Positions 29,210 through 31,289 of a DNA stretch of 64,000 nucleotides are shown piece by piece. The stretch spans positions 1 to 64,000 of the forward strand of contig NZ_JACERN010000010.1 of NCBI RefSeq assembly GCF_013911085.1. The letters run 5' to 3'. A model generated the notes under the pieces. It searched no databases, was not told where the DNA came from, and saw nothing but the letters and a program-made list of their open reading frames with translations. The position numbers and the translations under genes were made by a program. Position 1 is the first letter of the stretch, and the number at the start of each line of letters is the position of its first letter. The DNA is from Aquitalea aquatica (lineage in GTDB: Bacteria > Pseudomonadota > Gammaproteobacteria > Burkholderiales > Chromobacteriaceae).

Positions 29210-31006
29210 TCAGACATTGCCTTGCGCCTTGACGCGTTCCTGACGGTTGCTCAGTTTGTTGAGCGCTGACAGGTAAGCCTTGGCACTGGCGACAATTACA
29301 TCGGTATCAGCGCCCTGGCCATTCACCACGCGGCCATCCTTGGCCAGCCGTACGGTGACTTCGCCCTGCGACTCGGTACCCTTGGTAATGGCATTCACCG
29401 AGTACAGTTCCAGTTCGGCCTGGCTGTTGACCGTGCTTTCGATGGCCTTGAACGCAGCATCCACCGGGCCGGAGCCACTGGATTCGCAGCGCTTTTCCAC
29501 ACCATGTTCAACAAACACGATGGCGGCCTGCGGCGCTTCGCCGGTTTCGGTATTCACCTTCAGCGACACGAATTTGTAGTCTTCCTGCAAGGTAGCCACC
29601 AGCTCGTCCGACACCAGTGCGTGCAGGTCTTCGTCGAAGATTTCACGCTTGCGGTCGGCCAGATCCTTGAAGCGGGCAAAGGCGGCGTTAAGCGCTTCTT
29701 CGCTGTCCAGCACGATGCCCAGATCGGTCAGCTTGGTCTTGAAGGCATTGCGACCGGACAATTTGCCCAGCGTCAGGCGGTTGGCACTCCAGCCCACGCT
29801 CTCTGCCGACATGATTTCATAGGTTTCGCGATGCTTGAGCACGCCATCCTGATGGATGCCGGATTCGTGAGCAAAGGCATTGGCACCGACGATGGCCTTG
29901 TTCGGCTGCACCGGATAGCCGGTCACCGTGGACACCAGCTTGGAAGCCGGCACGATCTGGGTGGCATCGACGCGGGTATCCACCGCGAAAATGTCCTTGC
30001 GGGTACGCACCGCCATGACGATTTCTTCCAGCGCGGCATTACCGGCTCGTTCACCCAGGCCATTGATGGTGCACTCCACCTGACGGGCACCGCCCAATAC
30101 CGCAGCCAGGCTATTGGCCACGGCCATGCCCAGATCGTTGTGGCAATGGGCCGACCAGATCACCTTGTCGCCACCTTCGGTCTTGCTGATCAATTCGCGG
30201 AAGAAGGCCTCGGTAGCACGCGGCACGGCGTAGCCCACGGTATCCGGCACGTTCAGCGTGGTGGCACCGGCCTTGATCACTTCGCCAAAAATGCGGGCGA
30301 GGAAATCGATATCCGAACGCAGGGCATCTTCGGCAGAAAACTCGACATCATCGGTATATTCACGCGCCAGCTTGACGGCCTTTACCGCAGCATCCACCAC
30401 CTCGTCCGGCGTCATGCGCAGCTTCTTTTCCATATGGATGGGGCTGGTGGCGATAAAGGTATGGATACGGCCACGGGCGGCCGGCTTGATGGCTTCGCCA
30501 GCAGCACGCACATCGCGCTCATTGGCACGGGCCAGGCTACAGACGGTGGAATCCTTGATCACCTCGGCAATGGCGTGGATGGCATCGGCATCACCCGGGC
30601 TGGCGGCGGCAAAGCCGGCCTCGATCACATCGACACCCAGACGTTCCAGCTGGCGGGCGATGCGGATCTTTTCTTCCTTGGTCATGGAAGCGCCCGGCGA
30701 CTGTTCGCCATCACGCAAGGTGGTATCAAAAATATAAAGACGATCGCCCATGTCGAATGTTCTCCCTTGTCCCTGTGCTGCTGTCCCGGCTGCGTTCAGG
30801 TAATCGTTGAAATCGAATCTCTTGCCCTGGCTTGCCGCCAGTTGCGCCAACTTGTTCAACTGCGCCAGCGGTAGGCTGCCGCGTTCTCTCCACTTGTAGA
30901 CTGCTGCACGGCTGACCGGCTCATCGGGAAAAATCCGGCTCAGACCTTCAGCCACCGCACCGGGGCCGCCCAGATCGTCAATGAGTCGTTCAATGTCCAA
31001 TTGCAT
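29210..31006 (-). CDS. leuA: 2-isopropylmalate synthase with N-terminal helix-turn-helix extension
   Basis: First leucine-specific step: acetyl-CoA plus 2-ketoisovalerate. The enzyme part (513 residues from the ATG at 30751) is complete: [38 protein letters not shown] and the C-terminal allosteric domain. The frame continues 85 residues upstream to an ATG at 31006 with AGGAG seven bases away and a good sigma-70 promoter just upstream. The extension resembles a Cro/cI-like HTH ([17 protein letters not shown], then [16 protein letters not shown]). GGGAGAA also precedes the internal ATG, so both a 598- and a 513-residue protein may be made. A monocistronic gene; stop at 29210. Confidence 0.93.
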
Positions 31007-31034
31007 GTTGTGCTCCTGCAGCAAGTTTTGATTC

Positions 31035-31063
31035 AATGTAGCGATTGGACGACATAACGTCAA
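31035..31063 (-). promoter_or_regulatory. Sigma-70 promoter of leuA
   Basis: Minus strand TTGACG (31058-31063), 17-base spacer, TACATT (31035-31040). The start site would be near 31028, leaving a leader of about 22 bases before the long leuA start. This excludes the in-frame start at 31063. Confidence 0.65.
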
Positions 31064-31252
31064 ACGTGCAGTGCAACATTCGTAAAAAACTCGGCGGAGC
31101 GTGTGTCAAATTTGCAATTATTAGACACAAAGTCCAATAATGATCAAAAAGCCAGCTTACCCAAGCCCAGCCCGGCCATTACCACCCGGTGTTTTCTACC
31201 CAGTCGATAAGAAATATCAGACGAATTTGTCCAATCACACAGTAGCACCAAG

Positions 31253-31289
31253 AAAAAGCCCCGCTGCTGCCAGGGCAGGAGCGGGGCTT
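31253..31289 (-). terminator. Intrinsic terminator of pssA
   Basis: AAGCCCCGCT/AGCGGGGCTT arms with a 14-base loop that can pair further, followed on the minus strand by TTTTTC. It lies 18 bases after the pssA stop. Confidence 0.85.

Follow-up and report, generated by a model that had tools for sequence, protein, structure and literature searches.

What does a helix-turn-helix (HTH) domain do at the front of LeuA, an isopropylmalate synthase? The question is raised by a locus on the minus strand of the window, which is the whole stretch of 64,000 nucleotides analysed here (Aquitalea aquatica GCF_013911085.1, contig NZ_JACERN010000010.1, positions 1 to 64,000, forward strand).

The long reading frame and its head domain

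An earlier note on this DNA had claimed an in-frame HTH extension of LeuA, and the claim is borne out. The frame is open from the ATG at 31006 to the stop at 29210, and 85 residues precede M86 (ATG at 30751). The long form, HTH-LeuA, is composed of the following parts.

29210..31006, minus strand: long form HTH-LeuA, 598 aa (open frame; NF002087 896 bits, NF046037 65.5 bits)
30809..31006, minus strand: carph-isopro (Cro-like) HTH domain, residues 1-66 (NF046037; five-helix model; Cro matches)
30752..30808, minus strand: linker, residues 67-85, variable (differs among relatives; pLDDT < 50 at 72-85)
29933..30739, minus strand: HMGL-like catalytic barrel, residues 90-358 (Pfam PF00682)
29252..29644, minus strand: LeuA_dimer allosteric domain, residues 455-585 (Pfam PF08502)

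The enzyme is identified as LeuA by NF002087 (896.4 bits, cut-off 729) and TIGR00973 (686.7 bits, cut-off 598.7), the cut-offs of both being exceeded. The head alone scores 71.1 bits against NCBIfam NF046037 (carph-isopro; curated cut-off 38) and is a member of that domain; in Pfam it has no significant family, its matches all lying below cut-off. Because NF046037 is a curated NCBI domain and the head falls within it, the fusion itself is already known, and the statement in the earlier note that a small HTH is annotated before some isopropylmalate synthases was correct. The name carph-isopro presumably combines carbamoyl-phosphate and isopropylmalate synthases. The A. aquatica genome has one HTH-LeuA fusion.

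The head is modelled as five helices with a mean pLDDT of 82. In a Foldseek search with this model, 3bd1 was the best match (1.5 Å over 55 columns, probability 0.96), and the top seven PDB structure matches are all Cro chains, yet the best E value is only 0.48, which is not significant. A PDB sequence search with the head found no convincing relative (best E 1.6). The model of the whole protein is poor (mean pLDDT 68, and < 50 in linker residues 72-85); therefore, no dimer geometry is claimed. A phage source of the head was considered and rejected as weak, the matches consisting of phrog_8008 (E 3.5e-6), just two partial relatives in viral contigs, and one phage record (E 0.09).

The head is under purifying selection: two comparisons within Aquitalea gave dN/dS values of 0.08 and 0.06. 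Its recognition helix has residues that are invariant in two alignments (38 and 35 sequences), from which Neisseria was left out. As to stops or frameshifts in the extension of relatives, a point raised in the earlier note, the head has zero internal stops across the 49 listed fused genomes, and one of 69 loci has a frameshift, which lies behind the head, between it and LeuA (L147, Paludibacterium denitrificans). The operators described below are retained at this locus (L147:2501-2900), and the frameshift may be a sequencing error.

Distribution of the fusion

In an order-wide scan of 399 genomes, 66 exceed the carph-isopro cut-off and 49 carry HTH-LeuA, each confirmed at the locus; these belong to families f1, f5, f14, f32, f44, and f51, together with one f22 genome. 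Among named genomes, a scan with one peptide pattern, which is not matched by Neisseria, gave 69 loci, by title mostly from Neisseriales (Aquitalea, Vogesella, Chromobacterium, Chitinibacter, and Iodobacter). Two titles, Xenophilus and Janthinobacterium, are off-group and may be mislabelled. The closest named relatives are those of Aquitalea.

Genus g46 of family f44 is Neisseria by inference, because the LeuA of its fused locus L052 is about 95% identical (347/365, counted by eye) to the LeuA of N. meningitidis (3rmj). At least nine genomes of g46 are fused among the matches listed. In gonococci leu1 is induced anaerobically, and in meningococcal biofilm LeuA is raised (PMC3032703 and PMC4138514); the head is absent from the passages of these papers that concern leu1/LeuA.

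In a LeuA tree built from 86 fused and 13 non-fused rows (215 columns), at least four gains or losses of the fusion are needed, three of them forced by well-supported branches. Therefore, losses or transfers happened, and the tree did not demonstrate that the fusion arose once.

Operators upstream of fused leuA

The region ahead of fused leuA repeatedly contains the palindrome TTAGACA-N3-TGTCTAA. Its length of 17 bp is the usual one for lambda-type operators. In the window the following candidate sites are found.

31121..31137, minus strand: operator O1, TTGGACTTTGTGTCTAA, 2 mismatches (palindrome conserved in relatives)
31048..31064, minus strand: operator O2, TTTGACGTTATGTCGTC, 5 mismatches, over the -35 box (centre 73 bp from O1)
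31102..31111, minus strand: extra half-site, ATTTGACACA (sequence inspection)

The earlier note had drawn a site GTGTC...GACAC at 31101-31126. This took in the right half of O1, but its register was wrong and was given up, since relatives conserve the TTAGACA-N3-TGTCTAA register instead; the rest of it is the extra half-site.

The best site has no more than three mismatches in 68 of 78 distinct fused loci, against 0.8 expected from dinucleotide shuffles, and a second site with no more than four is present in 59 of the 78, against 0.3 expected, although this shuffle test is partly circular, the consensus having been derived from fused loci. Independent tests are provided by non-fused leuA, by leuA2, and by comparisons within genera. 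The shuffle, spacing, and Shine-Dalgarno figures refer to these first 78 loci, for which the motif used missed the FDTTMR type of LeuA, so that most of the Neisseria-like loci and a part of the non-fused ones were not included; the count that follows uses both motifs.

With the wider LeuA motif, the palindrome is found with three or fewer mismatches at 73 of 83 distinct fused leuA loci and at none of 31 non-fused ones, the loci being mutually related, so that the counts do not represent independent events. Rows were de-duplicated by protein start; the 31 non-fused ones come from 30 genomes (G116 appears twice). At the other 10 fused loci the best site is no better than four or five mismatches; three of the non-fused rows have four mismatches and none has fewer. 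Neisseria-like fused loci have a best site with one to three mismatches, and the non-fused G168, of the Neisseria-like family f44, has five. In family f22, O1 of the fused G068 has two mismatches, against 6, 6, 5, and 6 in its non-fused congeners G021, G188, G112, and G151.

Two sites are typical. O2 lies mostly at -57 to -60, overlapping the -35 box, and O1, about 130 bp upstream, is mostly found between -111 and -141. Both sites are clear in 59 of the 78 loci, and their spacings there cluster near 53, 64, 73, and 83, apart from one case each at 41 and 46. For the 16 distinct values, R is 0.58 when a helical period of 10.5 bp is assumed (p about 0.005), and the best-fitting period is a broad one around 10.1. 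This phasing is suggestive of O1 and O2 having to lie on the same face of the helix. A conserved operator in the regulated promoter, as would be expected of an enzyme that doubles as a repressor, is thus found for HTH-LeuA.

Specificity of the palindrome and leuA2

The scans give no sign of a wide regulon. In the A. aquatica genome the reversed control pattern has 5 matches against 5 for the forward one, and the motif shows no excess; in 20 genomes the motif totals are below the reversed-pattern control (16 against 38 forward, 17 against 39 reverse). Therefore, the palindrome is not a dispersed site. Nineteen of these 20 genomes are fused, and G012 has an aminotransferase fusion, not HTH-LeuA. 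All four exact matches in the 20 genomes are at fused leuA. With at most one mismatch there are 26 places, of which 13 are at fused leuA, two before leuA2, two in the porin-hemB interval of two Aquitalea genomes, and nine elsewhere (three were inspected, with no clear pattern). The operator-like palindromes of the porin-hemB interval are at L179:1501-1517 and L210:1501-1517.

The gene leuA2, which encodes a second isopropylmalate synthase of another type, is present in 15 of the 49 fused genomes. It offers the cleanest independent test, because the consensus was not derived from it. An upstream site with at most three mismatches is found in 8 of the 15 (0.12 expected), and one with at most four in 12 (1.06 expected). 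When G117 and G268, the loci that prompted the idea, are left out, the figures are 6/13 and 10/13. Seven of the 15 loci have more than three mismatches, and three of these miss at 5, 6, and 7. Among leuA2 loci of non-fused genomes (27 loci, out of 33 such genomes with the gene), none has a site with three or fewer mismatches and one has a site with four; the mean G+C upstream of leuA2 is 0.50 in the fused set and 0.55 in the non-fused one. It is probable from these comparisons that the long LeuA also represses leuA2 in many genomes having both.

One of the three misses is in G205, where leuA2 is directly behind an HTH-LeuA paralogue, L084 (L084:2210-3877), which exists beside a normal HTH-LeuA. 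The paralogue is 47% identical to the window protein in the head, 54% in the leucine domain, and 28% in the barrel, and the normal copy 74%, 81%, and 81%, respectively. In L084, D99 and H287 (of the LRDGEQ and HCHND motifs), which we take to have a metal role in LeuA, are substituted. Two operator-like sites, with three mismatches each, precede it. A paralogue of this type occurs in one of six genomes of its family, and it looks like a repressor that remained after catalysis was lost.

Two translation starts

The signals for transcription and translation in the window are as follows.

31035..31063, minus strand: promoter TTGACG-17-TACATT (one of three promoter-like sites in 621 bases)
31013..31017, minus strand: Shine-Dalgarno AGGAG of the long form (read from the sequence ahead of ATG 31006)
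30762..30766, minus strand: Shine-Dalgarno GGGAG of the short form (read from the sequence ahead of ATG 30751; core statistics)
29210..30751, minus strand: short form LeuA, 513 aa, internal ATG (Met in 83/83; Shine-Dalgarno statistics)
31258..31276, minus strand: terminator-like hairpin behind the preceding gene (weak: 1 found vs 0.9 expected)

The good promoter that had been described before the long start was located at 31063-31035; the three promoter-like sites in 621 bases compare with 0.4 expected. Two starts had likewise been proposed, and a ribosome site indeed stands ahead of each. A Met is present at the start of LeuA in 78/78 loci and in 83/83 of the wider set, despite the variable linker, any Met within about 12 residues ahead of the LeuA motif being accepted. 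A GGAG, GAGG, or AGGA core precedes this internal Met in 63 of 78 loci, against 7.2 expected under synonymous recoding, and the cores occur in all three frames (40, 12, and 11). The mean anti-Shine-Dalgarno pairing energy at the internal start, -6.8 against -3.6, equals that of the upstream start. Selection for the internal start would be the simplest cause of this conservation. Since both the Met and the Shine-Dalgarno core are conserved, a short, head-free LeuA is probably produced as well.

Proposed mechanism and its alternatives

The best explanation of these observations, to which we assign a probability of roughly 0.82, is that the long LeuA would be both an enzyme and a repressor of its own gene, acting at the palindromes, with leuA2 as a co-target, a short catalytic form beside it, and leucine tuning its activity. 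It starts from what comparison of sequences brings out, namely the domain, the sites, the link of the sites to the fusion, and the internal start. Since a DNA-binding-type head is combined with matching sites in the promoter, the enzyme probably shuts off its own gene. The proposal of the earlier note, a long DNA-binding form and a short catalytic one, is well supported by the fusion-linked operators and by the conserved internal start with its Shine-Dalgarno core. A literature search, which covered few subscription journals, found no report of LeuA as a repressor of its own gene.

From this basis we infer binding, repression, looping, and leucine as the signal, with its direction, as follows. 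Each TTAGACA-N3-TGTCTAA palindrome would be occupied by the two N-terminal Cro-like heads of a LeuA dimer. Since O2 covers the -35 box, binding there would exclude RNA polymerase and block the leuA promoter, and O1, which lies further upstream by about seven turns of the helix, would contribute cooperative binding or looping. The long form would also repress leuA2 in many of the genomes where that gene is present. Translation from the second start, served by a separate ribosome site, would yield a short, purely catalytic LeuA. Finally, leucine bound at the C-terminal domain would most likely tune the binding of DNA by the long form.

The palindromes might instead serve an unrelated repressor of leucine genes, the LeuA head having some other role. 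Sites before leuA2 would be in keeping with such a repressor, but the palindromes appear and vanish together with the fusion, and each of two further fusions, in which the head is the same or related, has a palindrome of its own (see below); we consider this improbable. Less credible still, to the point of being very improbable, is that the head is a leftover of gene fusion and that the short LeuA alone matters. The N. meningitidis LeuA structure, whose chain starts at the internal Met once six residues have passed, and the frameshift behind the head in L147 would agree with this, but not the dN/dS of 0.06-0.08, the invariant residues of the recognition helix in the two alignments without Neisseria, or the freedom from internal stops in the listed fused genomes.

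More weight, though still less than even, is given to the possibility that the head binds its sites without sensing leucine, as plain autoregulation that holds the level of LeuA constant. Against this stands the G205 paralogue, in which the leucine domain has been retained far better than the barrel. We regard leucine control of the long LeuA, as in the preferred reading of an enzyme that represses its own gene, as likely. If that reading is true, leucine synthesis in Neisseriales would be governed by its first enzyme as its own repressor, and annotation of the start at the internal Met would conceal the regulatory half of LeuA, just as the N. meningitidis chain was solved without its head.

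The same or a related head on other enzymes

A class V aminotransferase begins with a similar head in other families of the order (at least 14 loci: L070-L081, L087, and L088). The scores of these heads straddle the carph-isopro cut-off, several being above 38 and that of L076, whose head Pfam assigns to YdaS, being 34.9. The enzyme itself is far under all named aminotransferase cut-offs. In one alphaproteobacterial family, carph-isopro matches are found in 74 of 80 genomes, and CarA carries the domain in all 35 loci examined (L238-L242 and L263-L292). Upstream of the aminotransferase gene the palindrome TTGTCAAA-N5-TTTGACAA occurs with at most three mismatches in 14/14 loci (0.04 expected), and upstream of carA TGGGAA-N5-TTCCCA occurs with at most two in 33/35 (0.4 expected), both consensuses being drawn from the loci scored and the counts covering fused genes alone.

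In one genome the domain is also seen, below cut-off (32.9 bits), at the head of ArgA, N-acetylglutamate synthase (L228:160-1695). In L083 it heads a RhuM-type protein (Pfam PF13310), and L082 is alike by eye.

Judged by these sequences, some further enzymes seem to be constructed as LeuA is. We lean, by a small degree, towards the broader view of a portable repressor head that has been added repeatedly (to LeuA, CarA, the class V aminotransferase, and perhaps ArgA). Each fusion would act on a private operator to repress the gene that encodes it, possibly with sensing of the pathway and, at least in LeuA, with an internal start that gives the plain enzyme, and one lineage, after decay of the enzyme part, would be left with a dedicated leucine-sensing repressor. 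That this or a related head occurs on further enzymes, in two cases with an upstream palindrome, suggests a general route to the self-regulation of enzymes.

Comparison with known systems

The NF046037 entry, of which the window head is a member, names the domain only; operators, autoregulation, and an internal start are proposed here in addition, none of which was found for carph-isopro in the literature search, with its few subscription journals. In its predicted fold the head may resemble Cro repressors of phages (those of Xfaso 1, 3bd1, and N15, 6on0), but it differs from them in being joined to a biosynthetic enzyme. The N. meningitidis LeuA of 3rmj is the same enzyme, crystallised as a headless chain. 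The nearest parallels in function would be the enzyme-repressors PutA and BirA, which are likewise metabolic enzymes that bind promoter DNA. They differ in pathway and in sites, and the internal start of HTH-LeuA probably adds to such a design a headless form of the enzyme.
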